In this document: positions 8,278 to 64,000 of the stretch, piece by piece
How positions within the stretch are numbered: position 1 is the first letter of the stretch
Layout of the letters: each line of letters opens with the position of its first letter
NCBI RefSeq assembly: GCF_002952775.1
Contig: NZ_CP025066.1
Span: 930,001 to 994,000 of the forward strand
Direction: 5' to 3'
DNA length: 64,000 nt
From: Halalkaliarchaeum desulfuricum
Lineage (GTDB): Archaea; Halobacteriota; Halobacteria; Halobacteriales; Haloferacaceae
Notes under the pieces: generated by a model
Seen by the model: the letters and a program-made list of their open reading frames with translations, nothing else
Databases searched by the model: none
What the model was told of the DNA's origin: nothing
Program-made: the position numbers and the translations under genes

Positions 8278-9318
8278 CTACCCCTCGAATCGCTCGCGGA
8301 ACAGGGCGACCTCCTCGCGCGTCGGCAACGCAGTCATCGCTCCGGGTTCGGTGGTGGTCACCGCCGCCACCGCACCCGCGAACTCGAGGGCCATCGCGGG
8401 CGAGCCGCCGTTCGAGAGGGCGGCGATCGCGCCCGCGAAGAACGCGTCACCGGCGCCGGTGGTGTCGACCGCCTCGACCGGATAGCCGTCGTGTCGTACT
8501 ACTTCGTCACTCGATCCCCCCTCGTCTTCGGACCGGTGTACGTCCCCGAACCACGGCGCGTCGGGAGTCGCATACGCGACCGCGCCAGCGGAGCCCAGCG
8601 TGAGAAACACCGTGTGCGGGCCGGCCTCCGCGACGCGGCGGACCAGTTCGACGTCGTCGAGTTCCCGGTCGTATCCTGCGGCCGCGAGATCCTCACGCGA
8701 CGTCTTTACCACGTCCGCGAGCCCGAACGCTCGGTCGACACTGTCGGCAAAGTCGTACTCGTCCCACAACTCCGGTCGGGCGTTGGGATCGAACGAGACC
8801 GTGGCGCCGGCGTCGCTGGCGCGTTCGAGGAGGTCGAACGTCGCCTCCCGACCGGGATCGTCGGCGAGCGTGACACCGCCGGCGTGAACCCAGTCGACCG
8901 ATTCGAGACGATCGTCGCCGATCCGCCCCGACTGGAGTCGGGTGTCGGCGCTTCCGTCGCGGTGGAAGCTGAACGCCCGGTCGGCGTCGGGATCGAGGCT
9001 GACGAACGCGAGCCCGGTTTTGGCGCGGGGATCGACTTCGACGAGTTCATCGGAGATTCCGGCCGCTTCGAGCGTTCCTCGGAGGAAGTCGCCGAACGGA
9101 TCGTCGCCGACGCGCGTCCAGAACGCCGGCGTGACGCCCAGTCGCGAGAGGCCGACAGCGACGTTGGCTGGGGCACCCCCCGCGCGGCGATGGAAGGTTT
9201 CGACGTCGGGAAGCGGCCCGGGGGTCTCGGGAATGAAGTCGACGAGTGTCTCCCCGGCAACCAGAACGGACGGATCCGACCGTGAACCCGAATCGATGTC
9301 GAACGTCTCGTCCCACAT
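8278..9318 (-). CDS. PfkB-family sugar kinase (fructokinase-like)
   Basis: The 346-residue protein is a ribokinase/PfkB-family kinase that phosphorylates a sugar or nucleoside with ATP. It has the N-terminal substrate motif RRAGGAPANVAVGLSRLG near residues 47-64 and the C-terminal PfkB signature DTTGAGDAFFAGA with the catalytic Asp. The overall pattern is closest to bacterial fructokinases. The ATG at 9318 (MWDETFDID) is preferred over an upstream start nine codons earlier. It runs in the same direction as the MetE-like gene, 66 bases downstream of that gene's stop. A fructokinase role would fit the fructan enzymes at 24-28 kb, but the genes are 15 kb apart, so this link is only suggestive. 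Confidence 0.85.
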   Translation of the reverse strand: MWDETFDIDSGSRSDPSVLVAGETLVDFIPETPGPLPDVETFHRRAGGAPANVAVGLSRLGVTPAFWTRVGDDPFGDFLRGTLEAAGISDELVEVDPRAKTGLAFVSLDPDADRAFSFHRDGSADTRLQSGRIGDDRLESVDWVHAGGVTLADDPGREATFDLLERASDAGATVSFDPNARPELWDEYDFADSVDRAFGLADVVKTSREDLAAAGYDRELDDVELVRRVAEAGPHTVFLTLGSAGAVAYATPDAPWFGDVHRSEDEGGSSDEVVRHDGYPVEAVDTTGAGDAFFAGAIAALSNGGSPAMALEFAGAVAAVTTTEPGAMTALPTREEVALFRERFEG

Positions 9319-10559: not shown

Positions 10560-10625
10560 AGCGAATACCACTTATTGGTTACTATTAGTTATATATTTCC
10601 TATATAATATTATTATAAATCATAT
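10560..10625. promoter_or_regulatory. A/T-rich divergent promoter region
   Basis: About 65 bases are almost pure A/T (runs such as TATATATTTCCTATATAA), in sharp contrast to the GC-rich surroundings. The segment lies between the starts of the MetE-like gene and the divergent small gene at 10707. It very likely contains the TATA element for the MetE-like gene and may hold operators; I cannot define a specific binding site. Confidence 0.55.
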
Positions 10626-10706
10626 ACCGGGCCGGATCGACCGCGTACCGTCGAATAGTTCCAAAAGTTCCACAGAGCCTTACGTCTGGAATGCGTCGTC
10701 GACTCC

Positions 10707-10991: not shown

Positions 10992-11263
10992 GGGCAGTTT
11001 CGAGTAGCACCATCGAATTCGACAGACGCGCGTCGGCGAAATTTATTGAATAGATCCTTCTGAACTCCGGACAGGTCACTCACAACTGCTTCTGCAGGGA
11101 AGCTATTCATGATGGGTTCGAGGCCTTGGCAAAAGAGCAACTGACTCCCACAACGTTTAATTCGATTATTATTTCAGAATACTAACACCCAATTGTTCAA
11201 TATTCTACCTTTATTTTATACAAAGATTTTTAATATAATATCCGGGTAGGGTCACATATTCCG
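10992..11263. other. Low-GC spacer before the PKD gene, with a short open fragment
   Basis: This 272-base spacer has much lower GC than its neighbours. On the plus strand, positions 11054-11185 form an open frame bounded by stops that includes EAIHDGFEALAKEQLTPTTF. It has no suitable start and could be a remnant of a mobile-element gene. The last 40 bases contain a strong TATA-like stretch (TTTTTAATATAATAT at about 11226-11240) that is correctly placed to drive the gene at 11264. Confidence 0.4.
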
Positions 11264-13744
11264 ATGGACGGAAGGACGATCATGGTCGTGGTGCTGCTCG
11301 TCGCAGCGGCGGGTTCAGCAGCTGTCGTCGTCGCAGAGGAGGAACAACCGATGGCGGATGCGGGTCTCGATCGGTCTGTCGATCTCGGAGAGACCGTTTA
11401 TCTCGACGCGAGTGGGTCTCGGGGGGCGAGCGGTGAAATCGCTGAATATCAGTGGTATGTCGCTCCACCAGACGGCGAACGAGAACGCCTTGAAAAAGGA
11501 AATTCGGCGAGACACACTTATGTCCCGGATTCCGTCGGTGTGTGGCACTTTACGGTCGAAGTGACTGGCACGAACGGTGAGGTGAGCGAAGATTACGTGG
11601 AAGTTCAGGTAGAGATTGCAGACTCATCTGGAGATGAGCCGAAACAGTCCGATGACGGACCGGATGATTCAGATGAGACAGATGATACCTCAGAGGATAC
11701 CCCATCCAATCCAGACGATAGTTCTGAAAGAGATCCAACGCCAACCCCGACTTCAGATGAGCCTGAAGATACAGCCGAGTCAGATGAAACAAATCAAGGT
11801 CCCAGTAATTTGGAAATTTCAGGACCCTCTGTGGTCGTACAGGGAACAGTGCATACTTACGAAGTGGAAAGCGATGGTGAGATAATCGATTACGATTGGG
11901 TATACACATCGAATCAAGATGCTCACCTCGGATCCGGAACAACACAAGACATCTCATTCAATGACCAGAAGGCAGAGTCTGGAAAAATTAGAGTTCTCGG
12001 CACAACCGACTATGGTGATGAAGTTTCAGATGTGATGACGGTTACAGTTGTCGAACCGGAAGCAGAAACTTCAGAGGTTGTAGATGAGCCAAAACACGAG
12101 GTTACTGGTTTAGAAACTAACACTCAATATGCTGGAAATGATCCAACAATAGAAATACAAGATATTGTAGATAGACAAGTAGAAAAAGCGTTATTAACCG
12201 CAGTCCCTCAAGAATCGATTCAATTCTCGGTAGATGTAAGTTCAACAAAGAATCTTGAGTTAACATACAACTGGGATTTTGGAGACGGATCCAAAACTAA
12301 AACCTCGCAACCTTCAGCGACTTATTTTTACCAAATACGGGAACCAACTAGCAGAGAATATAATGTTGAAGTAGAAGTTGTTGATCAGTTTGGGAGAAAA
12401 GACAGATATGAGGACACCGTAGTTATTCAAGGACCAACTGTCAGCCATGGTGAAGATAATGTCGAAATAAGGGAGATTGAGGATTCCACACTGACTGCTA
12501 CTTTTGAGATCGATACAGCGACGACGCCTGCAGATCATGAAAATCTCTATGAATTCAATTTCGGCGATGGCAGTTCTTTAAATCTATATGCAGACGATTG
12601 CCAAAGATATCGGATGTGTGATGGTAATACATACTTAATAACACACCAATATAGTTCTCCAGGAACATATTCAGCGTGGCTTTCTGGAAAAGAATTTCAG
12701 GACACAAGTGGCCAAACACAAGTGACAGTCACCTTCGACTCCTACACCGAGTACCACTACACCGAAAGAACCACTGCAGTCGCCGAACACGTTTCCGAGG
12801 AGGATCCCGGCGAGGGGTGGGAAATGGTCGGCATCGAGTCGATCGACGAGGAGGTAGTCGACCGAGAGGAGACGCGTATTCGCGACGAGCAGAACCCCGA
12901 CGCTCTGTTATCAAACGACTGGCGTCGAATCGGAACCGAAACCGAAACCGAGCAGCGCCGCGAAACCCGGGTCGCCGCAAACTGGCCCGGAAGTGGCTGG
13001 TCGATGGACGAACGGTCCGTGGATTCTCAGACCCGGATCGTCGGCTACGACCACGTTGAGGTCCCTCACCGCAGCCTCGCGCCGAGAGACGGAACCTACG
13101 TCGGGACGACGACGAACTATCAGACGACCACGGAACAGGAACGGAGCACCTCCCGTCCATCCGGCTCGGGATGGTCGCGAGTCCGATCTACCGGGCAGGT
13201 CCGCGACGGGACCGGGTCGACGTGGCGATCGTCCCGACGAGCCCCGGCGTCCGGCTGGCGGATCGTCGACTCCAGGACGGTGACCGAATACTACACCGAA
13301 ACCGAACGGTACTGCAAGGAACGTACGAACAGTTGGTTCGGAGACGGGAGATGCGTCGACTGGGGCGAACGAACAGTGTGGAAAAGCGACACCAGTAGAG
13401 AGTACAAGTTCGAGTATCCGACGTACAGCACCGAGTACCTCTGGGAACGAACCGAGAGCACGCCAGAGGTGTACTACGAGTATCGCGTTCCCGAGTATGG
13501 AACGCAGGACCTCCACCGTTGGGAGCGAACGTACATGGACGAAGTCGAGTACGGGGTGTACGAAAAACTGGAATACGAGACGACGACAACCTACGAGTGG
13601 GAAAAGGAGGTCGAACGCGAGGTCGATCACGTGAGCCTCACGCCGCCGAACACCGACGAGGTGGACGTCGTGGGCGACGTCTCGGAGCAGGTCATCGCCT
13701 GTGGAAGCGGCGACGGGGAACTCGAAGAAAAGGGCTGCACTTAA
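11264..13744 (+). CDS. Secreted PKD-domain surface protein with GSGW-type C-terminal repeats
   Basis: The 826-residue protein starts with a Sec signal peptide (hydrophobic residues 7-24). A PKD-like domain follows at about 25-120, then an acidic Ser/Thr/Pro-rich linker (about 125-180) and further PKD-like domains at about 181-262, 315-395 and 412-490. The hallmark strands YNWDFGDGS and YEFNFGDGS are seen in the last two. The C-terminal part (about 490-800) has no family I know. It is rich in Trp, Tyr, Arg and Thr, carries repeated cores GEGWEM, GSGWSM, GSGWSR and ASGWRI, and ends in strongly alternating YEY/WEK-type strands. PKD domains usually mediate contacts on the cell surface. Codons 125-485 are A/T-rich while both ends are GC-rich, so the gene looks mosaic. 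No C-terminal anchor is visible. Confidence 0.8.
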   Translation: MDGRTIMVVVLLVAAAGSAAVVVAEEEQPMADAGLDRSVDLGETVYLDASGSRGASGEIAEYQWYVAPPDGERERLEKGNSARHTYVPDSVGVWHFTVEVTGTNGEVSEDYVEVQVEIADSSGDEPKQSDDGPDDSDETDDTSEDTPSNPDDSSERDPTPTPTSDEPEDTAESDETNQGPSNLEISGPSVVVQGTVHTYEVESDGEIIDYDWVYTSNQDAHLGSGTTQDISFNDQKAESGKIRVLGTTDYGDEVSDVMTVTVVEPEAETSEVVDEPKHEVTGLETNTQYAGNDPTIEIQDIVDRQVEKALLTAVPQESIQFSVDVSSTKNLELTYNWDFGDGSKTKTSQPSATYFYQIREPTSREYNVEVEVVDQFGRKDRYEDTVVIQGPTVSHGEDNVEIREIEDSTLTATFEIDTATTPADHENLYEFNFGDGSSLNLYADDCQRYRMCDGNTYLITHQYSSPGTYSAWLSGKEFQDTSGQTQVTVTFDSYTEYHYTERTTAVAEHVSEEDPGEGWEMVGIESIDEEVVDREETRIRDEQNPDALLSNDWRRIGTETETEQRRETRVAANWPGSGWSMDERSVDSQTRIVGYDHVEVPHRSLAPRDGTYVGTTTNYQTTTEQERSTSRPSGSGWSRVRSTGQVRDGTGSTWRSSRRAPASGWRIVDSRTVTEYYTETERYCKERTNSWFGDGRCVDWGERTVWKSDTSREYKFEYPTYSTEYLWERTESTPEVYYEYRVPEYGTQDLHRWERTYMDEVEYGVYEKLEYETTTTYEWEKEVEREVDHVSLTPPNTDEVDVVGDVSEQVIACGSGDGELEEKGCT

Positions 13745-19959: not shown

Positions 19960-21396
19960 ATGGACGATGGAGTTTCTCCGGAAGTTCGGGAAAAAATCGA
20001 CAAACACAGGGAAGGACGCTCCGAGCACCGCGGGACGCTGGTGGTGAGCGACGCGGAAGCGTACGTGGGTGACACCGTCACGCTGGAAGGACGGAACCTC
20101 CCCGAGAACGCCGACGTCGACGTGATCTGGCACACGGCAGAGGGGATGTGGGGCGTGCTCGAGGCGAACGAGGTCGTCGGGGCGCAGTACCAGCCCAGGA
20201 AAGAGCAGTTGACGTCGGTTACGACCGACGAGAACGGTCGATTCACCGAAGAGTGGCAGATTCCGGAGGACTACGGCGGCGAACACCGGATCGAGCTCCG
20301 GCCGAAAGGCGACGAGGAGTCCACCCTGGCGGAGACGAAGCTCCAGATCCTCCCGTGGTTCGAGATCGATCGCACCGAGGCGGAGTTGGGCGAATTCTTC
20401 ACCGTGACCGGCTACGGCCTCGGCCCGAACGTGATCACGAACAACTACCAGATCGCCTGGGACAACGGGATGGTCGGGATCATGACCGGCGTGCAGAACC
20501 GCGGAACCGCGACCGCCGAAGTGCGAGCCGTTGGCCCACCCGGAAAGCACGTCCTCCAGGTGTGGCGCAACTACCGCGGGGTGCCGTTCCTCCAGAACAA
20601 CACCCAGTCGCCGTTCGGTCCCGTCGCAGGAGGCCGGAAGTCCTCCTGGACTGTGGAGGTCACCGAACCCGAATCCGAACCGGAATCGGCGTGGCTCGAC
20701 CCGATGTGGGACGAGGGACCGCTCAGTGTCCACCTGCCCGATATCGACGAGGAGACCGACGCGGAACTGGAAATTTCGCCGACCTCCGGGCAGCCGGGGA
20801 CTGACGCCTTCATCACGGGACGTAACTTCCCCGCCGACACCGAGGTGAACCTGATCTGGCATAGCCACGAGGGACACCGCGTGAAGGGGATCGACATCAC
20901 CCCCGTGCCGATGCCCGAGGCGCTGCCGACGGTGACGACCGACGAGGACGGGGCGTTCCAGGTCGAAGTAGAAATCCCGACGGACATCGGGGCAACCCGG
21001 CCGATCACCGCGGAGATCGACGGCAAGTCCGTGGCGAAGGCCGGCTTCATGATGCAGCCGAAAATCGAGACGTTCTCCCCGACCGAGGGCCCCGTAGGCA
21101 CCGAGATCGAGATCGAAATCTCCGGCGTCGGCTGGCCCACGTACGGGAACGCCTACTACTTCGTGTACGACAACAAGCCACTGGGATACATCTGCGGACT
21201 GGAAGCCGCAGTGAACCGGACCGTCCTGCAGGCGGCCGGCGAACCCGGGTGGCACTTCATCGACGTCTACCCGAGCTTCTTCCAGGTGCAGGAGGACGAA
21301 CCGGACTTCGAGTTGAAGCCGCACCTCTCGTATCTCGACAACCATCCGATCCGTCCCCTCCCGGCAGCACACTTCGCGTTCGAGATCACGGAGTGA
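19960..21396 (+). CDS. Multidomain TIG/IPT-like beta-sandwich protein of unknown function
   Basis: I do not recognise this 478-residue protein as a named family. It consists of four beta-sandwich-like segments in two repeated pairs. Segments 1 (about 25-130) and 3 (about 265-365) share YVGDTVTLEGRNLPENADV / QPGTDAFITGRNFPADTEV, then VIWHTAEG / LIWHSHEG, then SVTTDENGRF / TVTTDEDGAF. Segments 2 (about 131-235) and 4 (about 366-475) share LGEFFTVTGYGLG / VGTEIEIEISGVGW, an Asn-Tyr-rich strand and GKHVLQVWRNYRGVPF / GWHFIDVYPSFFQVQ. It has no signal peptide or membrane segment, which is odd for TIG-like folds. It starts an apparent three-gene run with an O-methyltransferase and a CoxG-like protein. 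An A/T-rich promoter precedes the ATG. Confidence 0.7.
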   Translation: MDDGVSPEVREKIDKHREGRSEHRGTLVVSDAEAYVGDTVTLEGRNLPENADVDVIWHTAEGMWGVLEANEVVGAQYQPRKEQLTSVTTDENGRFTEEWQIPEDYGGEHRIELRPKGDEESTLAETKLQILPWFEIDRTEAELGEFFTVTGYGLGPNVITNNYQIAWDNGMVGIMTGVQNRGTATAEVRAVGPPGKHVLQVWRNYRGVPFLQNNTQSPFGPVAGGRKSSWTVEVTEPESEPESAWLDPMWDEGPLSVHLPDIDEETDAELEISPTSGQPGTDAFITGRNFPADTEVNLIWHSHEGHRVKGIDITPVPMPEALPTVTTDEDGAFQVEVEIPTDIGATRPITAEIDGKSVAKAGFMMQPKIETFSPTEGPVGTEIEIEISGVGWPTYGNAYYFVYDNKPLGYICGLEAAVNRTVLQAAGEPGWHFIDVYPSFFQVQEDEPDFELKPHLSYLDNHPIRPLPAAHFAFEITE

Positions 21397-21421
21397 CCCG
21401 CCCCAGGCGCCCCGAGATCCC

Positions 21422-22192
21422 ATGATCGAAATCCTCCCGGAACACAGCGCGGAGTTCGTCCGACAGCTGGGGCCCGAGCCCGACGAACTGCTGATCGAGA
21501 TGGACGAGTACGCCGCGGACCACGACGCCGAGAAATTCTCCGGCGAGGAAAGCTTTCCACACGTCGGCCCCGAAGTCGGCGGCTGGCTCCAGTGGCTCGC
21601 AGGGCTCGTCGAGGCACGTCGGGTGTTCGAGTTCGGCTCCGGGTTCGGCTACTCGGCGTACTGGTTTGCACGCGCGCTCCCGCACGACGGGGAGATCGTA
21701 CTCACCGACCTCGACGAGACGGAGCTGCAGCAAGCCCAAGCGTTTCTGGATCGCGGGGGAGTCGGAGAGCGTGCCCGGTACGAACCCGGGAACGCCCTCG
21801 AGACGATCGAACGGTACGACGGACCGTTCGACGTCGTCCTGCTCGATCACCGGAACGACCAGTATCCGGAGGCCTTCGAGGCCGTTCGGGAGAAAGTCGC
21901 CCCGGGCGGACTCCTCGTCGCGGACAACGTCATGACGGCGGTCATCGTCGAGTTCGAACAGTTGGCGCGGGCGTTCGACGGAGGGGAGCCACCGACCCGC
22001 GCGAACGACCACACGAAAGGGATCTACGACTACCTGACTGCGGTACAGGAGGCGCCGGAGTTCGAAACCGGGATTCTGCCAGTCGGCGGCGGGATCGCCG
22101 TTAGCTACAGGCGCCGCACGGACGGCCGGAACCGACACGCGACCGAACAGACGGGGAGACGGACGAACCGACAGACGGAACGGAGCGACTGA
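21422..22192 (+). CDS. Class I SAM-dependent O-methyltransferase (second copy)
   Basis: The 256-residue protein is a catechol-type O-methyltransferase with the SAM motif [14 protein letters not shown] near residues 68-81 and FDVVLLDHRNDQYPEAFE near residue 138. It shares the unusual [11 protein letters not shown] motif and the PVG.GIAVS C-terminus with the protein encoded at 1869-2534, so the two are paralogues. A basic, Arg/Thr/Gln-rich tail of about 25 residues after the fold looks like low-complexity extension. It starts 25 bases after the TIG-like gene and ends 20 bases before the CoxG-like gene, consistent with one transcript. The substrate is unknown. Confidence 0.82.
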   Translation: MIEILPEHSAEFVRQLGPEPDELLIEMDEYAADHDAEKFSGEESFPHVGPEVGGWLQWLAGLVEARRVFEFGSGFGYSAYWFARALPHDGEIVLTDLDETELQQAQAFLDRGGVGERARYEPGNALETIERYDGPFDVVLLDHRNDQYPEAFEAVREKVAPGGLLVADNVMTAVIVEFEQLARAFDGGEPPTRANDHTKGIYDYLTAVQEAPEFETGILPVGGGIAVSYRRRTDGRNRHATEQTGRRTNRQTERSD

Positions 22193-22212
22193 ACCCAGAA
22201 CGCGGAGACACC

Positions 22213-22794
22213 ATGAATTTCACCAGAAACGGATCCGGGACACCAGAGACAAATGAGGAACAGCAGGCCGAACACGGGACGGCGACCGACGGCGACACAG
22301 AGAATGAAGAATCCGCAGACGGAGGACTCTCTTTCGACGGAACAGTTCAATTCGGGACGACGAAAGAGGAACTGTGGGGGTTCGTCTCCGAACCGGAGAA
22401 CCTCGTTCAGTGTGTCCCCGGCGCGGACGACGTCGAACAACTCTCCCAGCGACGATACACCTTCGATATCACCCGGGGCGTCAGCCGGCTGACGCTGTCT
22501 GTGTCGGGCGAGGCCGAACTGGTCGAGATGCACGAGCCCGACTGGATCGTCGCCGACGGCAACGCCTACGATGCGACGACCGGGAGCCAGTTCGACGTGG
22601 TCGCAGCCATGGAGTTGAGCGAAACGGACGACGGGACCGTCGACATGGCGTACACGGTCGACATCGACCTCACCGGCGGTGTGGCCGGCGTCGCCGGGCT
22701 CACCGACGGGCTGGTCAGATCGATCGTCAAATCCGACATGGAGACGTACTTCGAAAACATCAGGGCCGAGGTCGAATCCCCCGAAGCAGCGTGA
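22213..22794 (+). CDS. CoxG/SRPBCC-domain protein
   Basis: The 193-residue protein has an acidic disordered N-terminus (about residues 1-38), then a START/SRPBCC domain of the carbon-monoxide-dehydrogenase subunit G type. Hallmarks are FDGTVQFGTTKEELWGFV, then LVQCVPGADDVEQL, and a C-terminal long helix (VRSIVKSDMETYFENIRAEV). CoxG-like proteins bind hydrophobic ligands or quinones and help membrane recruitment of CO dehydrogenase, but no CODH or xanthine dehydrogenase genes are here, so the role is open. It is the third gene of a same-strand run beginning at 19960. Confidence 0.82.
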   Translation: MNFTRNGSGTPETNEEQQAEHGTATDGDTENEESADGGLSFDGTVQFGTTKEELWGFVSEPENLVQCVPGADDVEQLSQRRYTFDITRGVSRLTLSVSGEAELVEMHEPDWIVADGNAYDATTGSQFDVVAAMELSETDDGTVDMAYTVDIDLTGGVAGVAGLTDGLVRSIVKSDMETYFENIRAEVESPEAA

Positions 22795-22893
22795 GGGCAA
22801 CCGGCTTGCTGTGACGGTCGCTCGACCCGTCAATCTCGGTAGCAAACGGCAAAAAGTCGATTATATACCAACCGGGATAGTGGAGCGGCTAGA

Positions 22894-23874
22894 TTACTCT
22901 TCGACGACGGTGATCTCGCCCTGGAAGATCCCCACACGGTGGAACTGCGCGTCCGCGTCGTCTGCGGCAGTCACTTCCACCTCGTAGGTGAAGGCTCCGG
23001 CTTCAGTGTCCTCGGGGATCGTGTACCCGTTACTCCACTCCTCGTCTTCGTCGTCCCATTCGAGTTCGTTCGTGTCGCCGTTTTCGTATTCGAGGACGAC
23101 TTCTTCGAGGGTGTCATCGCCCACGATTTCGCCGTTCGACCCGTCGTAGACGCCGATACTGAACCCGACGTGCATTCCCGGGTAGAACAGGCTGTTCGGA
23201 AGGCACGCCTGCGACAGGTTCGTGTTTTCTTTATCGTCCATGTCGCTCGTGGCGTACGTGTCGTCGGTCACCACGTAGCTGGCTGCCGGATGTTCGAACT
23301 CGATGATCTCGAGTTCGCTGTCCAGCACGCCGACGTCCCGGTATTCGCCTTCGTTCGTGACTTCGACGGTGTACGTGACAGTTCCGGCCTCGTGGTCTTC
23401 GGGAATCGGCCAGTTGCCCGACCACTCGTCGTCCTCGTCATCGAATTCGAGTTCGACCGACGGGCCGCCGTCGATCTCGACGGTGGCCTCGTCGACGACG
23501 TCGTCGCCGACGATGTCCCCCGTCGCCGGGTCCCAGACGCCGATCTTGAAGACCGGCTGCATCCCGGGAACGAACGTCCGTTGGGGAGCACACGCCTGGG
23601 CGAATCCGCCTGTCCCCTCCGGGATATACGCCGAGCCGGCGATGATGTCGTCGGTGACGACGTAGTTCTCCGGCTCAGGCGTCGGCTCCGGTGTCGGCGT
23701 CGGCGTCGGTTCGGGCGTCGGCTCCGGCGTCGGCTCCTCCTCGCCGGCACAGCCGGCGAGCGCAACCGACGCGAAGCCGGCTGTCCCCGCCAGCACACCG
23801 CGACGACGCACCGACAGACCGGGACGGTTCCTCGATTCTTCCTCTCCCGTGGGTACCTCGTGCTCTTCTGGCAT
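22894..23874 (-). CDS. Tat lipoprotein with a duplicated acidic domain
   Basis: The 326-residue protein has a Tat signal (SVRRRGVLAGTAG) with a lipobox LAGC near residue 41, so it should be exported folded and lipid-anchored at Cys. A PTPEP-rich linker of about 25 residues leads to two tandem copies of a domain of about 120 residues. Copy 1 starts NYVVTDDIIAG and copy 2 SYVVTDDTYAT; both contain an FAQACAP/LSQACLP cysteine segment, an FVPGMQPVF/FYPGMHVGF strand, IVGDD and a WPIPEDHEAG/YTIPEDTEAG turn. I do not recognise the domain. The start at 23874 avoids an upstream TTG. It is convergent with the CoxG-like gene. Confidence 0.72.
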   Translation of the reverse strand: MPEEHEVPTGEEESRNRPGLSVRRRGVLAGTAGFASVALAGCAGEEEPTPEPTPEPTPTPTPEPTPEPENYVVTDDIIAGSAYIPEGTGGFAQACAPQRTFVPGMQPVFKIGVWDPATGDIVGDDVVDEATVEIDGGPSVELEFDDEDDEWSGNWPIPEDHEAGTVTYTVEVTNEGEYRDVGVLDSELEIIEFEHPAASYVVTDDTYATSDMDDKENTNLSQACLPNSLFYPGMHVGFSIGVYDGSNGEIVGDDTLEEVVLEYENGDTNELEWDDEDEEWSNGYTIPEDTEAGAFTYEVEVTAADDADAQFHRVGIFQGEITVVEE

Positions 23875-24186
23875 CAACGGGAGTAAACCACCCTTAACAT
23901 ATGTATATTCCGATCAATATTACAAGTTTCCTGTAATTGGCGATTAGCAGTCGAAGAGGCCCGCAAATAGCCGTTTAATCCTTTTGCAGATTCGACTCCG
24001 TGGAAAGTATTTGAAACTTTTCAATATTGAACCTTCATATTACATACACGTTCTCAATATCCAAACCGGCTCCCCAACAGCTATGGGTATATCCCGATGA
24101 AGCTCCGTTCCCGGTGAACCGAACGAGGGTTGTAGGTTGGACCGTTCCCGTATCACTTAACTCTCCGGTGTGCCTGTCGTGACCTG
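23875..24186. other. A/T-rich divergent intergenic region
   Basis: This 312-base gap separates the lipoprotein and GH32 starts and carries no gene that I can see. It is strongly A/T-rich from about 23895 to 24065 and contains several TATA-like stretches, one near 23900 suited to the lipoprotein gene. Overlapping palindromes at 24011-24031 are listed separately. Confidence 0.6.
24011..24031. promoter_or_regulatory. Overlapping palindromes upstream of the GH32 gene
   Basis: TTGAAACTTTTCAA (24011-24024, a 6-2-6 inverted repeat) overlaps the perfect 12-base palindrome TTCAATATTGAA (24020-24031). The site is about 155 bases upstream of the GH32 start. It could be an operator, but the region is A/T-rich, so chance palindromes are more likely than elsewhere. 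Confidence 0.35.
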
Positions 24187-26379
24187 ATGGACACGTCCGA
24201 TGTGGCCGTCGGTTTCCTCGCTGTCGGCGAACTCGACACGGAGGAACGGGCGGCTCTCACGTGGTGTCGAACCGAATTCGACACGAAACGGATCCAGTTA
24301 GACGCCGTTTCCGACGGCGATGCGCTCGCGGGACGCGACGTGATCTGGTGGCACGCCAACGAACCGATCGCGACTCCCCGAGATGTCGCGGACTGTGCCT
24401 CGGTATTCCAGTCGTTTCTCGATGACGGCGGCGGCCTCCTGTTGTCCTCGCGTGCGGTTGCTCAGGTTTCCGCGCTCGGAATCGATCCCGTTCCGCCGGA
24501 CGCGACCGGCACCGAACCGATCGACGAACCGACGGGCGTTCTCTGGAAGTCGGTGTACTCGGACCATCCGATCCTCGGTGAACTGGCCGGGCTTCGCCAC
24601 CACACCCAGCCCGCCGGCAAACCCGCACCGTATGCCCGATACGAGGACGTTCTTCCCGAACGGGCGGACGTGCTGGCCGGGACATTCCGGGGCGACACGG
24701 ACGTGCCGGCGGAGCTTGCGACCCTGCAGTGGCGCGTCGGCGACGGAACTGTCGTCGGAATGGGGCAAGGGATGGCGTTTGCAGGCGCGGACGCGAAAGA
24801 CACGGAAGCCAACCGCGAGCGAATCGCGAAGAACGCGCTCCGGTTCCTCGCCGAAGACGCAGGGTTCGCTCTCACCAGCGGACGGCCAGTCGACGCCGAG
24901 GGGCTCGACCGTCATCGCCGGGAACTGGCCGACGATTTTCAGCGGCCCCGGTACCACCTCTCCCCGCCGGCAAACTGGCTCAACGACCCCAACGGCTGTC
25001 TCCGGTGGAACGACCGCTACCACGTGTTTTATCAGTACAACCCCGCTGGCCCACACCACGACACGATCCACTGGGGCCACGCGGTGAGCGAGGACCTCCT
25101 CCACTGGGAGGACAAACCTGTCGCGCTATCCCCGACGCCGTCGGGGCCCGACCGGGACGGCTGCTGGTCCGGGTGTGCTGTCGATGACGATGGAACCGCC
25201 CGGATCGTCTACACCGGCGGCCGCGACCGGTGGCAGCTCCCGTGTCTGGCCACCGCAGCCGACGACGAACTCTCCGAGTGGATTCCTGTCGACGACAACC
25301 CGGTGATCGAACAGCCACCAGCCGAACTGGATCTGCTCTCGACGGAACACTGGCACGCCGAGTTCCGCGATCACGCGATCTGGGAGACCGGCGGGCGCTG
25401 GTATCAGCTCGTCGGCGGCGGACTGGAAGACGTCGGCGGGACCGTGATATTGTATGAATCTCCGGACCTGCGGAACTGGGAGTACGTCGGCCCGGTGCTG
25501 GTGGGAGACTGGGAGACGCCTGGGACGGTGTGGGAATGCCCGGAACTGCTCGACTTCGGAGACAGTCAGCTCCTTCACGTCTCCAACTACGAGGAGGTGC
25601 TGTACTTCCTCGGGGAGTTCGACGCCGACGCCGGAACGTTCCACGAACGGCGTCGCGACACACTCGATCCCGGAGATTTCTACGCGCCACAATCGCTACA
25701 GGACGGCGATCGGACAGTCACGTTCGGCTGGATCCCCGAAGCCAGAGGAATCAGCCGCCAGTGGGACGCCGGCTGGGCGGGAACGCTCTCGATCCCGCGA
25801 GAACTATCTGTAGAGGGAGGTCGACTACACCAGCGCCCGATTCGGGAGTTCACGGAACTTCGAAAGCGCCGACTGTGCGAGGGGCGCGTCGGCCTCGACG
25901 ACGAAACGCGCCGATTGGACGCGGCGGGACGCTCGATCGAGATCCAGGCGACCCTCGAGATCGACGACGCCTCGGAGATCGGGTTCCTGGTGTGTGCGAC
26001 TCCAGACGGAGCCGAGCAGACGAAGATTCGATACGACGGCGAGTCGGTGACGATCGACCGGGAAGACGCGAGCCTCGATCCGGGGGCGAACGCGACGCCG
26101 CAGTCGGTCGGCGTCGAGGATCTCGAGTCGCCGCTGGACGTTCGGATTTTCGTCGACGGGTCAGTCGTCGAACTGTTCGCCGGCGGACGGCGGGCACTCA
26201 CGGGTCGGATCTATCCGACGCGCCACGACAGCACCGGCGTCGCCGCCTACGCGTCCGACGGAAGCGGCAGTGTCGATGCGACGGTGTGGGATATGGGCGG
26301 CGCGTGGCCGGCCGTCACGGAGCCCTCCGCCAGGTCGAAACCGAAGAAATCCGGGATAACGTCCCCCGACGGCGGGTGA
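24187..26379 (+). CDS. GH32 beta-fructosidase with N-terminal amidotransferase-like domain
   Basis: The 730-residue protein hydrolyses beta-fructosides such as sucrose, inulin or levan. Residues 1-230 resemble the ThuA/class I amidotransferase-like domain sometimes fused to GH32 (DVIWWHANE, DDGGGLLLSSRA). The GH32 five-bladed propeller follows, with nucleophile Asp267 in WLNDPNG, transition-state Asp395 in FRDHAIW (usual motif RDP, here RDH) and acid/base Glu450 in WECPEL. A C-terminal beta-sandwich contains IFVDGSVVELFAGG. No signal peptide is visible, so it may act inside the cell. It is convergent with the GH68 gene, giving a fructan synthesis and breakdown pair. Confidence 0.92.
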   Translation: MDTSDVAVGFLAVGELDTEERAALTWCRTEFDTKRIQLDAVSDGDALAGRDVIWWHANEPIATPRDVADCASVFQSFLDDGGGLLLSSRAVAQVSALGIDPVPPDATGTEPIDEPTGVLWKSVYSDHPILGELAGLRHHTQPAGKPAPYARYEDVLPERADVLAGTFRGDTDVPAELATLQWRVGDGTVVGMGQGMAFAGADAKDTEANRERIAKNALRFLAEDAGFALTSGRPVDAEGLDRHRRELADDFQRPRYHLSPPANWLNDPNGCLRWNDRYHVFYQYNPAGPHHDTIHWGHAVSEDLLHWEDKPVALSPTPSGPDRDGCWSGCAVDDDGTARIVYTGGRDRWQLPCLATAADDELSEWIPVDDNPVIEQPPAELDLLSTEHWHAEFRDHAIWETGGRWYQLVGGGLEDVGGTVILYESPDLRNWEYVGPVLVGDWETPGTVWECPELLDFGDSQLLHVSNYEEVLYFLGEFDADAGTFHERRRDTLDPGDFYAPQSLQDGDRTVTFGWIPEARGISRQWDAGWAGTLSIPRELSVEGGRLHQRPIREFTELRKRRLCEGRVGLDDETRRLDAAGRSIEIQATLEIDDASEIGFLVCATPDGAEQTKIRYDGESVTIDREDASLDPGANATPQSVGVEDLESPLDVRIFVDGSVVELFAGGRRALTGRIYPTRHDSTGVAAYASDGSGSVDATVWDMGGAWPAVTEPSARSKPKKSGITSPDGG

Positions 26380-26412
26380 CTCCCTCGGGAACGTACCGTT
26401 CGAGCGAAAACG

Positions 26413-27708
26413 CTAATAGGTGTTCGTGTACCCGGCGGTTCGTCCCTCGAACGATCGCAGCTCCGGGAGCGGTTCCGACGGGAGCGGCAGGTGGCCGTGA
26501 TCCAGTGTGCCGAGGATACGGGTTCTGTCGCCGTCGAGTCGGATCCGGAGCGTCGGCGCGAGCGTCCCCCCGAACCGACGCAGCTGTTCGGACTCGGGGA
26601 GTTGTGCGATCCCGTCGAGCGACTCGCCGACGTAGTCGTAGTAGTTGAAGAAGCTGGTGACGAGCAGCTCATCGCGGTGGAAATACCCGATCCAGGAGTA
26701 CGCCTGAAACGGCGCGTTCGCGGGGTTCGTGGCAACCAGCCCGTGGCCGTTGAGTGGCCTGTAGGGGCCATACAGGTCGTCGGCCACGAAGCCGTACAGC
26801 CCGTCGAACCCCTCGATTCCGGGGGCAAACGTGTGTCTGTGGCTGGAGACGAACAGGTAGTAGCTCCCGTTTTTGTGCGCCACGTGGGGCCGTTCGAGTT
26901 CCTGGTTCACGCAGACGGCGTCCACGAGCGGCTCACGAAGCTCCCAGTCCATAAGGTCGCCAGACTCCGTAATCGCCATCCCCACGCTCCCGTTGAACTC
27001 CTGCTGGACTGGATCCCCGTCACAGCGATCACTTCCCTCCGGTACGGGCGTGTTGGCTTCGAACAACAGTGTCGTCTCCCCGGTTTCGGGATCCTCGAAG
27101 AACCACGGATCCCTGAACGTGTAGATCATCCCCCGGGACTGGCCCTCCCGTTCGTAAAACCTCCCGTCCGGTTCGAGCAACACCTCGTGGCGCCAGTCCC
27201 CGTCGATCGTGATACCCTCTCCGTCGGGGGAGACGGACACGCGACCGCCTTCCGCACCCGCGATCCGCTGGGTGTAGGTGAGCTCTGACTCCCCGCGGGA
27301 ACCGGACGCCGTATAGAACACGTAGAGATCGCCGTCGTCGTACAGCGCCGAACCGGCCCACTGTCGGGAGCCGAACGCGCCGCCGTCGAACAACGGACCG
27401 CCGTGCCCCCAGCGTCGTCCATCGGGGGAGTAAAAGTAGTGCAGTTCCGCGAGGTCGTGTCGCTTCCCGGGCAACAGCGTGTCCTCGGTCGTCAACGAGA
27501 CGATGACGCGATAGCCGTCGATTTCGGCGATCGTCCCGTCCCGGGTTCGAACCGGCCAGGTGTCCCAGATGTGCCAGCCGTCGAACGGATCCGACGGCGC
27601 GGGATAGATGATCGGCGCGACCGTCCGGTCTGTACGTTCGAGGCCGGCCGCCTGTGACCGGGTCCACGCCGACGGACGTCCCCCGCCATGTGAGAACTGG
27701 TTGGTCAT
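26413..27708 (-). CDS. GH68 fructosyltransferase (levansucrase/inulosucrase)
   Basis: The 431-residue protein transfers fructose from sucrose to growing fructan or to water. The three GH68 carboxylates are visible: nucleophile Asp49 in WDTWP, transition-state stabiliser Asp200 in FRDP and acid/base Glu272 in ELERPHV. Haloarchaeal GH68 enzymes have been described as inulosucrases, so inulin-type product is plausible, but linkage type cannot be read here. The start at 27708 (MTNQFSHGGG) is preferred to a longer frame of 39 extra residues. No Sec or Tat signal is seen at either start, unusual for an enzyme expected to work on external sucrose. It ends 33 bases from the convergent GH32 gene. Confidence 0.93.
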   Translation of the reverse strand: MTNQFSHGGGRPSAWTRSQAAGLERTDRTVAPIIYPAPSDPFDGWHIWDTWPVRTRDGTIAEIDGYRVIVSLTTEDTLLPGKRHDLAELHYFYSPDGRRWGHGGPLFDGGAFGSRQWAGSALYDDGDLYVFYTASGSRGESELTYTQRIAGAEGGRVSVSPDGEGITIDGDWRHEVLLEPDGRFYEREGQSRGMIYTFRDPWFFEDPETGETTLLFEANTPVPEGSDRCDGDPVQQEFNGSVGMAITESGDLMDWELREPLVDAVCVNQELERPHVAHKNGSYYLFVSSHRHTFAPGIEGFDGLYGFVADDLYGPYRPLNGHGLVATNPANAPFQAYSWIGYFHRDELLVTSFFNYYDYVGESLDGIAQLPESEQLRRFGGTLAPTLRIRLDGDRTRILGTLDHGHLPLPSEPLPELRSFEGRTAGYTNTY

Positions 27709-27853
27709 GGGCTCAGTCTCGGATACTGGTGGTCCGGAGAGAAATGTCTTTGCAGTTTCCCTCGACAGCGAGTAAGTTTTCCAGTCTCGGCGGGAACTCG
27801 CAAAATAGTGGCTCAGGCGTAACATCTAAGCACACCCTGGTAGATTATCACAC

Positions 27854-28792
27854 ATGAGCACCGGCGGGGGACAACAGTGGCAGCTCGACAGAACTGCCCT
27901 GGAGACGGGATGTACGGGCTGGGAATGCGGTCTCGTCGAGGCGCTCGGCGAGCCCGCGGTCGCGCTCGTCGCGATCGCCGTGGGCCTGGCGGTCTTCGTC
28001 TCACTCACCCTCCTCCGGGAGGCGGCCGACGCGGTCGTCGAAGAACGGAAACACGTCGTCCGCGAACGGAACGCGTTCGAAGCGTTCGCCGAACGTGTCG
28101 AACGGCTCCAGCCCGAGATGAGTTCCGACGGCGGAAAGGGCGGAACGCTGTCCGGGGCAGCCGCAGTACGAGTGGTCTCCGACGGAGCGACCGGAAACGG
28201 CGAGGGGATCGACGCGGTCGAAGCCACCTACGAACGAACCGTGATGTCCATGCAGCATTACGAGGAGGAGTACGGCGAGACGCTCGCCGAGAACATGGCT
28301 GCGGAGCTTGGAAGCGACGTGGCCACGGCAGTCGCTGCCGGCGATCAGCTCACGCCCGGGCTGCAAAGTGCGCTGGTTTCCGAGGCCCGCCGTGCCGCAA
28401 AGCGCCGTGAGACACTGCTTGCCCAGCTCGAAGACGAGGCAGAACGGATCGACGAGGCGTACCGCGCGATCGAGCCGGTCGAACACCGCCTCGAATCCGT
28501 CGAAGCGGATCTGGACGCGTCCGGCGGCTTCCACGAGGGGGTAAGCGCCTGGAACCGGCTCCGCTCGATAGAAACGGATCTCGAGGGCGAACTGGAACGC
28601 CAACAGACACGGCTCGACCCGTCGGAGCATCCGGCCGAGGAGCCGCACGTGTTCTGCAGATACCTCTACGGAGACGATGCCGGGAACGGCGAGTACCCGG
28701 TGTTGGGAACGCTCGGTCGCCTCCTCCAGCGTGTCGAACGGAGCAAACGACTCGCCGTCCGGACGATCACGGAAAAATCCGCCTCGGGGTGA
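27854..28792 (+). CDS. Membrane-anchored coiled-coil haloarchaeal protein
   Basis: The 312-residue protein has a short N-terminus with two cysteines (GCTGWECG), one membrane segment (about residues 34-53, VALVAIAVGLAVFVSL) and a long helical cytoplasmic or external region. The charged helices (LREAADAVVEERKHVVRER and later EARRAAKRRETLLAQLEDEAERI) look like coiled coil. I recall this pattern as the haloarchaea-specific DUF7260 family, of unknown function. There is no catalytic motif. The gene is divergent from GH68 with 145 bases between starts, and its own promoter lies in that gap. No role in fructan metabolism is implied by the sequence. Confidence 0.72.
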   Translation: MSTGGGQQWQLDRTALETGCTGWECGLVEALGEPAVALVAIAVGLAVFVSLTLLREAADAVVEERKHVVRERNAFEAFAERVERLQPEMSSDGGKGGTLSGAAAVRVVSDGATGNGEGIDAVEATYERTVMSMQHYEEEYGETLAENMAAELGSDVATAVAAGDQLTPGLQSALVSEARRAAKRRETLLAQLEDEAERIDEAYRAIEPVEHRLESVEADLDASGGFHEGVSAWNRLRSIETDLEGELERQQTRLDPSEHPAEEPHVFCRYLYGDDAGNGEYPVLGTLGRLLQRVERSKRLAVRTITEKSASG

Positions 28793-28853
28793 TCCGGCCG
28801 GGAGGCGGTCCTGCGACAGTCCTACTACAGTTCTGCGACAGATCGGCGGTAGA

Positions 28854-29918
28854 CTACAGAATCACGCGCGAGACGTCTCCGTGTCCAGCGCGTCGAACGA
28901 CGGCTCGCCGGACGTCAGTCACGCCCTCGAGGTTGTCGCTTCCTCCGTCGAGAACGAGCAGCCGTGCGTCGCGTCCCTCCTCGATCAGTCCGCAGTTCAG
29001 TCCCGCGATCTCCGCGCCGTTGATCGTCGCCATTCGGAGAACCGTCGCAGCGGGAACGCCCGAGAGCTTCGACGCGAACGCCATCTCCCGGAACATCGAC
29101 GGAGAGTTTAACATTACGTTGTCCGTTCCCAGTGCCACCGTCGTACGCTCGGCGAGTTCGCGGATCGGCGGCACACCGACGTCCGTCACCAGGTTCGATC
29201 GCGGACAGATCACGACCGGAATCGATCTGTCCTCGAGCCGGTCGAGGTGGAGATCCCGGACGTGAGTCATGTGAACGAGAAACGACGGGTCGAGATCCAG
29301 CGCCGGGTTGACGTCGTCGGAATCGCGTTCGCCGGCGTGGATCCCGAACAACTTCCCCGCCTCCCGGGTCGCTTCGCGGACGCTGGAGAACTCCCCGTCG
29401 CGGGCGCCGGACGCACCAAACCCGTCGGTTTCCCGCATCGCCTCGATCGTTTCCCGGCCGAGAACGACCGGTTCCATCGGGGAGCCATCGAGCGCCTCCC
29501 GGATGAGTTCGACCCCCTCGACACCCCCTTCGCGGAACTCGATGAACGCGCCGGTCCCCGTCGACGTCATGTATCCGAGCGACCGCCGCATCGCCGCGAC
29601 CATCGTCTCCGGGTCGGCCGCTTCGAGCAATCTGTGTTTCAATCCGTCCGGCGGCGCGACCAGTTCGTCGAGGGAGAGTCCCTCACCGGCCTCCTTCGCG
29701 ATCGAGTCGCCGATGTGGGTGTGAGCGTTGACGAACGCCGGGAGCACGATCGCGTCGCTTTCGACGGACGCCTCCTCGATCGCGGCGATCTGGCCCTCCT
29801 CGAGAACGACCCGCCCCTCGATCGGTTCGAACTCCCGCCCGACGAGGAGCGTGCCCTCGACCGTCGTGGATCCCTCGAGATCCGAACGATCCTCGACGTC
29901 GGCGTGTGCTGTGGTCAT
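28854..29918 (-). CDS. Amidohydrolase-family protein (deaminase-like)
   Basis: The 354-residue protein is a metal-dependent amidohydrolase of the cytosine-deaminase / chlorohydrolase group. The first metal site is NAHTHIGDS near residue 65, a second His is in LFGIHAGE, a third in LVHMTHV, and the catalytic Asp in LGTDNVMLNSP. An N-terminal beta domain precedes the barrel and a C-terminal part returns to it. Archaeal relatives deaminate adenosine derivatives or other nucleosides, but the substrate is not predictable. The start MTTAHADVED follows an acidic N-terminus usual here. The gene runs in the same direction as the HD hydrolase gene, 67 bases downstream of it. Confidence 0.85.
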   Translation of the reverse strand: MTTAHADVEDRSDLEGSTTVEGTLLVGREFEPIEGRVVLEEGQIAAIEEASVESDAIVLPAFVNAHTHIGDSIAKEAGEGLSLDELVAPPDGLKHRLLEAADPETMVAAMRRSLGYMTSTGTGAFIEFREGGVEGVELIREALDGSPMEPVVLGRETIEAMRETDGFGASGARDGEFSSVREATREAGKLFGIHAGERDSDDVNPALDLDPSFLVHMTHVRDLHLDRLEDRSIPVVICPRSNLVTDVGVPPIRELAERTTVALGTDNVMLNSPSMFREMAFASKLSGVPAATVLRMATINGAEIAGLNCGLIEEGRDARLLVLDGGSDNLEGVTDVRRAVVRRAGHGDVSRVIL

Positions 29919-63161: not shown

Positions 63162-64000
63162 CTACGTCAACCCGTGGGTGATCGCATTCCCGCTGTCCGT
63201 ATCGAAGAGGTGAATCTTGTTCCGGTCGGCGACGACCTTCACGTCTTCCCCTTCGGTGACGTCGGTGTCGGGCGACAGGCTGATCAGCAACTGTCCCGTT
63301 CCGCGTCCCTCGGCACTGGCTTCGACATCCCTGTCGAACAGCAGATACACGAACACCTCATCGCCCATCGGTTCCATGACATCGACCACCGCGTCGATCG
63401 GATCAGTCGGTTCCTGTGCCTTTCGCTGATCATCCGCGAGATAGACGTCTTCGGGACGAACGCCGAGTGTTACGTCCTGTGCGGGCTCGACGCCCTGGTC
63501 GGCGGGGTTCAGCGGTACGGTGACGTACTCGGAATCGAAGCCGTCTTCCTCGATTACACCGTCGACGAAGTTCATCGCCGGCGAGCCGATGAAGCCGGCG
63601 ACAAAGAGGTTCGTCGGCTCGTTGTAACACTCGAGCGGCGGCGCGACCTGCTGGAGTCTGCCGCCGTCGATGACGGCGATGCGGTCGGACATCGTCATCG
63701 CCTGTGCCTGGTCGTGGGTGACGTAGACGATCGTCGTGTCCAGCTGGCGGTGGAGCCGCTGCAGTTGGGTTCGCATGTGGACGCGCAGTTCCGCATCGAG
63801 GTTCGCCAGCGGCTCGTCCATCAAGAACACGTCGGGTTCGCGCACGATGGCGCGGGCGATCGCCACACGCTGGCGCTGTCCGCCCGACATCTCCGAGGGC
63901 ATCCGGTCCATCATCCCTTCGAGTTGCACGATGTCGGCGGCCTCCTCGACGCGACGGTCCACCTCCTCCTGGTCGTACTTCCGGAGCCGGAGACCAAACG
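63162..64000 (-). CDS. ABC transporter ATP-binding protein, UgpC/MalK type (partial)
   Basis: The coding frame is open to the window end, so the N-terminal part with Walker A is missing. Visible are the ABC signature MSGGQRQRVAIARA, Walker B DVFLMDEPLANLD and the H-loop TIVYVTHDQAQAMTMSD. A C-terminal TOBE-type regulatory domain (about the last 120 residues, VTLGVRPEDVYLAD) is typical of MalK/UgpC ATPases for sugar or polyol import. It sits near the Gfo/Idh/MocA and isomerase genes, suggesting uptake of the same carbohydrate. The stop is at 63162. Confidence 0.92.
   Translation of the reverse strand, partial: FGLRLRKYDQEEVDRRVEEAADIVQLEGMMDRMPSEMSGGQRQRVAIARAIVREPDVFLMDEPLANLDAELRVHMRTQLQRLHRQLDTTIVYVTHDQAQAMTMSDRIAVIDGGRLQQVAPPLECYNEPTNLFVAGFIGSPAMNFVDGVIEEDGFDSEYVTVPLNPADQGVEPAQDVTLGVRPEDVYLADDQRKAQEPTDPIDAVVDVMEPMGDEVFVYLLFDRDVEASAEGRGTGQLLISLSPDTDVTEGEDVKVVADRNKIHLFDTDSGNAITHGLT

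Follow-up and report, generated by a model that had tools for sequence, protein, structure and literature searches.

The window analysed here is the 64,000-nucleotide stretch from position 930,001 to 994,000 of Halalkaliarchaeum desulfuricum contig NZ_CP025066.1, and within it a GH32 and a GH68 gene stand tail to tail. The ORF list and Pfam matches place a DUF4960-GH32 beta-fructosidase of 730 amino acids on the forward strand at 24187..26379. A GH68 fructosyltransferase of 431 amino acids, predicted from its HRHT signature to be of the inulosucrase type, lies on the reverse strand at 26413..27708 (ORF list, Pfam and alignment), and the two stop codons are separated by 33 bp (26380..26412). 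An earlier note on this DNA had described the genes as convergent and had claimed that all three catalytic carboxylates of each enzyme are present; the ORF coordinates agree with the former, and alignments of 14 GH68 and 17 GH32 sequences located all six residues. Both genes are under purifying selection in comparison with the sister species (dN/dS of 0.13 for GH68 and 0.18 for GH32).

The GH68 protein matches Pfam Glyco_hydro_68 with an E value of 4e-74, and its score against PF02435 is 250.5 bits, where the cut-off is 27. Carboxylates D49 (WDTW), D200 (FRDP) and E272 (QELER) are invariant among the 14 aligned sequences and sit in the motifs given for D53, D200 and E272 in the available text of PMC8066391. 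The residues by which the same text defines the haloarchaeal inulosucrase group are also present (HRHT at 290-293, and D365), and all 86 signal-less GH68 rows from haloarchaea carry the HXHT signature. Our best reading of these motifs is that the window GH68 is an inulosucrase-type enzyme, predicted to make beta-2,1 fructan from sucrose. A solved "levansucrase" of 428 amino acids (7bj4/7bj5/7bjc) aligns over residues 7-418 with an E value of 9e-178, including the WTR N-terminus. Its sequence differs from that of the window GH68, and over approximately the first 40 aligned residues it agrees with locus L156, where a convergent GH32 is present too.

The catalytic part of the GH32 protein comprises a beta-propeller domain at residues 257-551 (24955..25839, forward strand; Pfam Glyco_hydro_32N, E value 1.1e-72), which contains D267, D395 and E450, and a C-terminal domain at residues 558-702 (25858..26292, forward strand; Pfam 32C, E value 4.9e-25). 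PF00251 and PF08244 both score above their cut-offs and the D/D/E triad is complete: nucleophile D267 (NDPNG) and stabiliser D395 never vary among the 17 aligned sequences, and acid/base E450 (WECPE) is conserved in 90% or more of them. The scrB-type and beta-fructosidase models match as well, with scores under their cut-offs. The window protein reads RDH where RDP is expected.

The GH32 polypeptide begins directly with a DUF4960/ThuA-fold domain (residues 1-223; 24187..24855, forward strand), which was recognised by profile and fold matches. Profile comparison with 8a9y_T gave an E value of 4.9e-12, and a predicted model of the domain (pLDDT 89.2) found its best fold match in 8aa2_G of the Bacteroides levan utilisome (Z 24.0, rmsd 2.3, 212 residues), which we equated with the DUF4960 protein 8aa2_T via residue numbering. 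Pfam DUF4960 was called in 19 of 23 homologues; in the window protein, PF16324 barely passes its 29.2-bit cut-off on the isolated domain (29.3 bits) and falls below it on the whole protein (26.3 bits). Judged from the profile comparison and the predicted model, the domain is a relative of the one that binds levan in the Bacteroides surface protein. That protein binds levan through tryptophans, W297 and W359 (PMC7618045), and a gut DUF4960 domain is described in the available part of PMC10076258 as binding levan, and inulin less well. In the GH32 domain analysed here, a putative fructan-binding module, W54 and W55 are invariant in 23 sequences. Many glutamine-amidotransferase folds were matched at Z of about 15, and no such function was assigned, because the levan protein ranks above them (Z 24.0, versus 18.2 for the next row). 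The Bacteroides levan utilisome has the same building blocks, DUF4960 in the surface protein BT1761 and GH32 in BT1760, but there they are two separate extracellular lipoproteins, whereas in the window they form one fused, signal-less polypeptide (PMC7618045).

The earlier note had also remarked that neither enzyme has a recognisable Sec or Tat signal. Microbial fructosyltransferases are normally treated as enzymes that work outside the cell. By a rule that combines a twin-arginine motif with hydropathy, rather than a SignalP-type prediction, we likewise found no Sec- or Tat-like N-terminus on the window GH32 or GH68. In the 90 residues before WDTW of the GH68 protein, the highest 13-residue Kyte-Doolittle mean is 0.58, and a hydrophobic stretch never comes after a twin-arginine motif; the same hydropathy scan gave 1.37-1.83 for 14 Tat-type rows. 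The note had named an upstream start that adds a signal as a finding that would overturn its view. A longer GH68 reading is possible from an ATG at 27825, with an extension of 39 amino acids, but a signal gained in this way was ruled out: the extension is closed in the sister species, where the ATG is missing and a stop codon interrupts the frame, and it lacks a hydrophobic stretch (best value -0.11). Upstream of its ATG, the open frame of GH32 extends by just 17 codons (747-aa frame).

The pair is not peculiar to the window genome and recurs in many haloarchaea. Among 80 named loci from haloarchaea (the best 80 of 118 matches to the query), 61 carry GH32 and GH68 tail to tail, and in these 61 relatives the open frames converge with a median gap of 26 bp. 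The class survey sampled 391 Halobacteria genomes and found GH68 in 154, of which 147 also have GH32. Within the family, GH32 occurs in 87 of 170 genomes and all 87 also carry GH68, a count uncorrected for kinship. Weak GH32 matches that fell inside GH68 were excluded (G045, G046 and G156 in the family survey; G045 and G046 in the class survey).

Comparison with the N-termini of other haloarchaeal GH68 proteins, as the earlier note had proposed, indicated that members of the clade normally go without a signal: 86 of 104 haloarchaeal rows are signal-less and 18 are Tat-signalled, and 37 of 38 are signal-less in a further sample, with Tat types under-represented both in that sample and among the 80 named loci. 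The 104 rows exclude L038, L040 and L072 of the 80 named loci, in which no GH68 was called, and include identical copies (L121=L048, L129=L052, L116=L066 and L149=L119). A further 20 loci, 19 hand-picked as high-scoring or divergent plus the sister species, gave 15 of the 18 Tat rows. The 38-row sample consists of 40 loci minus L168 and L182 (no GH68 called), drawn mostly from the top of the class-survey listing, whereas Tat-type genes tend to be hit in pieces and to rank further down. A few of the signal-less rows speak against a cytoplasmic place: L077 reaches a hydrophobic stretch of 1.3 if the earliest ATG is taken, and L034, L078, L092 and L105 have such a stretch further upstream in the open frame.

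In a quick tree search, which left L153 on a very long branch, the 86 signal-less rows fall on one side of a branch with an SH-aLRT of 80. Both kinds of GH68 were seen together in three genomes: G306 (L130 with Tat signal, L159 without), G038 (L123 and L025, respectively) and G042 (L126 and L012). The 18 Tat-signalled proteins have the family and core motifs in common with the window GH68, but differ from it in their RR-type signal, in a signature that is mostly HXFT (16/18) and in being mostly free of cysteine (16/18), whereas signal-less proteins have 1-5 cysteines each. Cysteine was given little weight as a sign of location, since its overall content in the loci is much the same in exported as in cytoplasmic proteins (means of 0.57% and 0.75%, p 0.04). 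Cysteines 229 and 266, for which the available text of PMC8066391 models a disulfide, could be a sign of an oxidising place; the pair is complete in 53 of the 86 signal-less proteins, wholly absent in 20, and mixed or unread in the rest. A conserved WTR..A segment opens the signal-less proteins and comes after the signal in most Tat proteins; the signal therefore looks like an addition, and nothing appears to be missing from the window GH68. Haloarchaea do add signals to GH68, and the signal-less clade would most simply be cytoplasmic. In G007 and G008, Tat-GH68 is tail to tail with Tat-GH32, and these are the only Tat-flagged GH32 among 80 copies, by a check that is rough in that several starts were called too far upstream (e.g. 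L082, L097 and L106). Partner and signal appear to go together in these two genomes, and we count this for a cytoplasmic location.

The statement in the earlier note that no sucrose transporter gene is adjacent is literally true but misleading. A sugar ABC importer adjoins GH68 in some relatives, and its nearest homologue lies 38.7 kb from the window pair; the MalK/UgpC-like ATPase gene of this importer starts inside the window (63162..64000, reverse strand) and runs off its end (genome 993162-994289). Beyond the window follow two permeases and a Tat lipoprotein binding protein (to 997803) and, past the importer genes, a TrmB regulator recognised by its domain match (genome 998776-999831). The sequence TACT-N7/8-AGTA, which we take to be the TrmB-like operator motif, has no match in the window. 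A binding protein of the GH68-linked type (E <= 1e-80) is present in 90 of 94 GH68 genomes versus 12 of 76 without GH68, uncorrected for kinship and at a threshold that admits paralogues (at 54% identity or above, the protein is found in only 28 of 170 genomes). Of the 62 genomes that have both it and GH68 on one contig, 31 show the two no more than 10 kb apart. GH13 genes, too, adjoin importers of this type. A PfkB kinase at 8278..9318 (reverse strand) is a candidate for fructose phosphorylation; its best NCBIfam match is the fructokinase PRK09434, at 203.5 bits and below the 450-bit cut-off. Haloterrigena turkmenica has a signal-less GH32 of the type analysed here flanked on both sides by ABC transporter genes, all running the same way, as expected for an enzyme acting on imported sugar.

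We regard it as an evenly balanced question whether the pair forms a cytoplasmic fructan module fed by imported sucrose. In such a module the linked ABC importer, a putative sucrose transporter, would bring in sucrose, and the signal-less GH68, presumably inside the cell, would move fructose from sucrose onto sucrose or fructan, yielding glucose and an inulin-type fructo-oligosaccharide or polymer. The signal-less GH32 would grip the chain via its DUF4960-type domain and, if flux runs in that direction, hydrolyse it to fructose, which the putative PfkB fructokinase may then phosphorylate. The fuller proposal of an intracellular fructan cycle, in which GH68 turns imported sucrose into an inulin-type reserve or solute, DUF4960-GH32 mobilises it and Tat-GH68 works outside, is put forward tentatively, as somewhat less than an even prospect. 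Our searches of the open-licence literature, which were not aimed at that phrase, turned up no paper describing such a cycle in haloarchaea. If the pair does work inside, hypersaline archaeal sucrose and fructan physiology must be redrawn, fructan could serve the cell as a reserve or an osmolyte, and the extracellular place published for the Halomicrobium enzyme would have to be tested afresh; with an internal cycle, prokaryotes would have their own counterpart to the storage of fructan in plants. The split between signal-less and Tat-signalled GH68 offers a ready natural control for a test of location.

The earlier note had offered two explanations, sucrose import with internal synthesis, or export by an unrecognised route. 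We favour the former because of the separate Tat GH68 group, the signal-less GH32, the fructan-binding-type domain and the importer linked in part of the relatives; the latter keeps support from fructan found in culture medium (PMC8066391, in part). Export would mean that GH68, with or without GH32, gets out of the cell by lysis or by a route that needs no cleavable signal, and that fructan is made and used outside, which we judge rather unlikely. The levansucrases of Rahnella (34.9% identity to the window GH68) and Acinetobacter (35.6%) likewise start directly at the enzyme, as does 4d47, which we take to be the Erwinia levansucrase. For such signal-less Gram-negative enzymes, extracellular action is documented at least in Erwinia, where cell-free supernatants of a levansucrase-expressing E. 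amylovora strain formed levan (PMC3899960, in part). Among haloarchaea, Halomicrobium sp. IBSBa grown with sucrose yielded inulin-type fructan, which was purified from the medium. The inulosucrase of this strain resembles the window GH68 in length class (434 aa, nucleophile D53, N-terminus of signal-less length), catalytic motifs and HXHT, but differs in that its product is proven and its authors argue for an extracellular place, and the available text names no GH32 partner; SignalP 5.0 predicts no signal for it, whereas PRED-TAT does (PMC8066391, in part). The missing signal is nonetheless less odd than it seemed, because signal-less proteins are the rule in the clade, SignalP 5.0 had already given none for the Halomicrobium enzyme, and GH32 and GH68 of three haloarchaeal isolates are listed as "Cpl", here taken as cytoplasmic, in the available part of PMC13260240. 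The pair-bearing Natronocalculus amylovorans (L076) was isolated on inulin (PMC9726719, in part), but such growth could come from oligosaccharide uptake. Export is also opposed by the Tat signals that the same archaeal taxa give to another GH68 group, by the absence of a signal from GH32 as well, and by the lack of any secretion-family match in the six neighbouring proteins scanned (19960 to 29918).

Protein composition leans the other way as a weak indicator of location. A classifier trained on proteins of the loci, with a cross-validated AUC of only 0.78, placed most signal-less proteins on the exported side (80% of 85 GH68 and 87% of 76 GH32); the window proteins scored 0.63 (GH68) and 0.73 (GH32), and the median was 0.91 for Tat GH68 versus 0.67 for signal-less GH68. 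These absolute scores count against a cytoplasmic pair. Tat-GH68 lies near a signal-less GH32 in Haloterrigena turkmenica and one relative, and therefore both enzymes need not share a compartment. A cytoplasmic pair might also make no polymer, GH68 mainly cleaving sucrose and GH32 serving as an invertase that also trims imported short fructo-oligosaccharides. The sub-threshold scrB-type and beta-fructosidase matches, the importer linkage in part of the relatives and the Haloterrigena gene order would fit this, but we think it unlikely: the polymer-binding-type domain on GH32 and the inulosucrase signature throughout the signal-less GH68 point to chains, and two enzymes redundant for one hydrolysis are nevertheless kept together. 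For the favoured cytoplasmic module, a possible bacterial parallel is found in Sphingobium, where a signal-less GH68 gene is directly followed by a ROK-family gene.

The GH32 gene (24187-26379, + strand) and the GH68 gene (26413-27708, - strand), both assigned by gene call and family match, converge with a stop-to-stop distance of 33 bp, and each family has a single match in the host genome, which is one contig of 3.31 Mb (the window being 930001-994000). The earlier note had described this convergent pair and the presence of all six catalytic carboxylates; our coordinates and gene directions agree with it, and the alignments of both enzymes recover 6 of 6. Comparison with the sister species gives dN/dS values of 0.13 (GH68) and 0.18 (GH32), so both genes are maintained. 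Adjoining GH32 is a Tat-type lipoprotein (RRRGVLAGTAGFASVALAGC; 22894-23877, - strand) with a repetitive Pro-Glu-Thr rich linker, which is also found in the sister species.

The GH68 start methionine (MTNQFSHGG) lies 47 residues ahead of the WDTW motif. Upstream, this genome has a longer open frame, but in the sister species that stretch is interrupted by an in-frame stop and offers no ATG other than the shared internal one; the short start is therefore, judging from the two sequences, likely the true one. In GH32 the N-terminal domain begins at once, its first strand occupying residues 7-12 of a structure model, and only 17 open codons precede the start. Using a motif and hydropathy rule, we found no signal-like stretch at either N-terminus, in agreement with the earlier claim that both enzymes lack a Sec or Tat signal. 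That claim was to fall if an upstream start added a signal, and here the frame is blocked in the sister species and the GH68 extension would bring no signal.

The earlier note had also proposed a comparison with the N-termini of other haloarchaeal GH68 proteins. Our set comprised 104 haloarchaeal rows, 100 of them distinct, and three bacterial rows brought it to 107. Of the 104, 86 lack a signal and the other 18 have an RR motif with a hydrophobic stretch behind it. In a quick tree a single branch (SH-aLRT 80) separates the signal-less rows from the Tat rows, which share their side with two bacterial ones. In both kinds the enzyme proper begins with the segment WTR..A, some rows deviating, as does the closest solved structure, 7bj4, with its chain of 428 residues; by sequence, therefore, the Tat kind is a signal placed ahead of an enzyme that otherwise starts like the window GH68. 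Three genomes (G306, G038 and G042) encode both kinds. After the earliest ATG, hydropathy reaches 1.3 over 13 residues in just one of 85 signal-less rows (L077). A further 40 loci, drawn from other families of the order, gave 38 GH68 calls, of which a single one is Tat and 37 lack a signal. We consider the split between the two kinds the strongest argument that the absent signal of this clade reflects an inside location and not a signal that went unrecognised. One locus, L125 (G025:C27), carries a tandem of two Tat-signalled GH68 close to a sugar ABC importer, on a contig with several GH32 matches that may be a fructan gene island.

The pairing with GH32 is widely conserved. Of the 80 named loci, the best of 118 matches to the window GH68, 61 have a GH32 in tail-to-tail orientation no more than 1.7 kb from GH68 (median gap 26 bp), three others have one at a distance of about 3 kb, and in five it is elsewhere in the locus; none was seen in 11 of the 80, two of which hold less than 2.5 kb downstream. 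In the 40 further loci, 34 of the 37 signal-less GH68 face a GH32. Across 170 genomes of the family, GH68 occurs in 94 and GH32 in 87, GH32 never without GH68; across 391 genomes of the class the counts are 154 and 158, with both in 147 and GH32 alone in 11 (G219, G243, G258, G262, G284, G288, G290, G343, G360, G374 and G392). Several of these GH32-only genomes have frames of 520-660 aa, which would leave little room for the DUF4960-type domain. Two genomes (G007 and G008) pair a Tat-GH68 with a facing Tat-GH32 of 526 aa in which the N-terminal domain is missing (Pfam on the G007 copy). Pairing by compartment is not strict, because Haloterrigena turkmenica and one relative have a Tat-GH68 near a signal-less DUF4960-GH32 amid ABC transporter genes; there, fructan is likely made outside and the oligosaccharide imported and cleaved inside. 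In L122, a GH32 (10311-12089, - strand) adjoining a divergent Tat-GH68 is perhaps a Sec or lipoprotein form, since a hydrophobic stretch (KD 2.02) lies near its called N-terminus with no RR motif.

A profile of 23 homologues of the N-terminal domain of the window GH32 matched the levan-utilisome DUF4960 protein of Bacteroides (E 4.9e-12), with one more weak match (0.011), and 19 of the 23 individually matched PF16324. The predicted structure (mean pLDDT 89.2, pTM 0.88) is closest in fold to 8aa2_G of the levan-bound utilisome (Z 24.0, rmsd 2.3 over 212 residues), followed by a ThuA-like protein (Z 18.2). We infer that the domain binds fructan. Two tryptophans of the Bacteroides surface protein are reported to help bind levan, with little inulin affinity (PMC7618045), and a gut DUF4960 domain is described as having an apparent affinity of 10-20 nM for levan and one about ten times weaker for inulin (PMC10076258); such a levan-preferring relative would be only a rough guide if GH68 makes inulin. 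The latter source counts GH32 domains in 5 of 103 Pfam DUF4960 sequences. The domain occurs in 147 of 391 Halobacteria genomes, three above E 1e-5 (G198, G423, G424), and among the matches listed only that of G339 (248-aa frame) sits in a frame too short for GH32. The stabiliser motif (window 25366-25374 in the GH32 alignment) reads Arg-Asp-His in 13 of 13 DUF4960-type rows; three rows that lack the domain, L122, L127 and L128, have Arg-Asp-Pro there, and L118 has neither motif.

Our favoured reading is that fructan is made and degraded in the cytoplasm. Sucrose would enter via an ABC system; GH68 would form a fructosyl-enzyme on D49 and pass fructose to an acceptor; GH32 would hydrolyse the chain while its binding domain holds it; and glucose and fructose would join central metabolism. 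These steps are drawn from the families, the observations themselves being of anatomy and homology. All 86 signal-less haloarchaeal rows carry HXHT, proposed in PMC8066391 as a marker of haloarchaeal inulosucrases. A sugar ABC binding-protein or permease gene shares the locus in 17 of the 80 named loci and 15 include a gene for a TrmB-type regulator (domains checked on the L100 copy). In the L100 set the SBP_bac_1 binding protein bears a Tat signal and a lipobox-like cysteine; a MalK/UgpC-like ATPase, two permeases and the TrmB neighbour complete it. The nearest homologues of this set here lie at genome positions 996358-997782 (binding protein, 69% identical) and 995332-996312 (permease, 78%), 38.7 kb from GH68 (36.2 kb in the sister species), and the ATPase gene begins within the window at 63162. 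The linkage to GH68 suggests sucrose or fructo-oligosaccharide as the putative substrate. In the family survey the binding protein is found at E <= 1e-80, a threshold that admits paralogues, in 90 of 94 GH68 genomes versus 12 of 76 others, and at 54% identity or more in 28 genomes only. A PfkB kinase (8278-9318) is nearest to fructokinase, under the model's cut-off. A possible sugar or cyclitol oxidation cluster (58694-61957, - strand), near the ATPase gene and running the same way, consists of two GFO/IDH/MocA dehydrogenases and a xylose-isomerase-like TIM barrel.

Haloarchaeal GH68, its inulosucrase activity and the absent signal are already in print (PMC8066391), and a solved structure close to the window GH68 is public. 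Our searches of the open-licence literature, no single one directed at all three subjects, turned up no publication on the conservation of the convergent pair, the split between Tat and no signal, or an archaeal DUF4960-GH32 fusion. The enzymes are known ones, likely in an unusual compartment and with an added binding-type domain.

Several observations count against the cytoplasmic reading and hold our confidence in it to an even balance. Inulin-type fructan has reportedly been obtained from the sucrose medium of Halomicrobium IBSBa, and the single GH68 of that strain, of the same kind as the window's, is given no signal by SignalP 5.0 and a signal by PRED-TAT (both via PMC8066391). For Erwinia amylovora, cell-free supernatants are reported to show levansucrase activity (PMC3899960), and none of the related GH68 from Gram-negative bacteria that we examined has a signal. 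Natronocalculus amylovorans, described as isolated on inulin (PMC9726719), carries the GH68/GH32 pair, and a composition classifier assigns the majority of signal-less GH68 and GH32 to the exported side, less strongly than Tat GH68. As a side observation, on plasmids of Acinetobacter and Rahnella, a gene annotated as a lambda-family phage holin lies directly downstream of a signal-less GH68 (L154 2838-3143, L155 2837-3151), and the Rahnella plasmid also has a 'late control protein B' gene upstream, on the opposite strand; this arrangement raises the idea that signal-less levansucrase might leave the cell by a route derived from phage.
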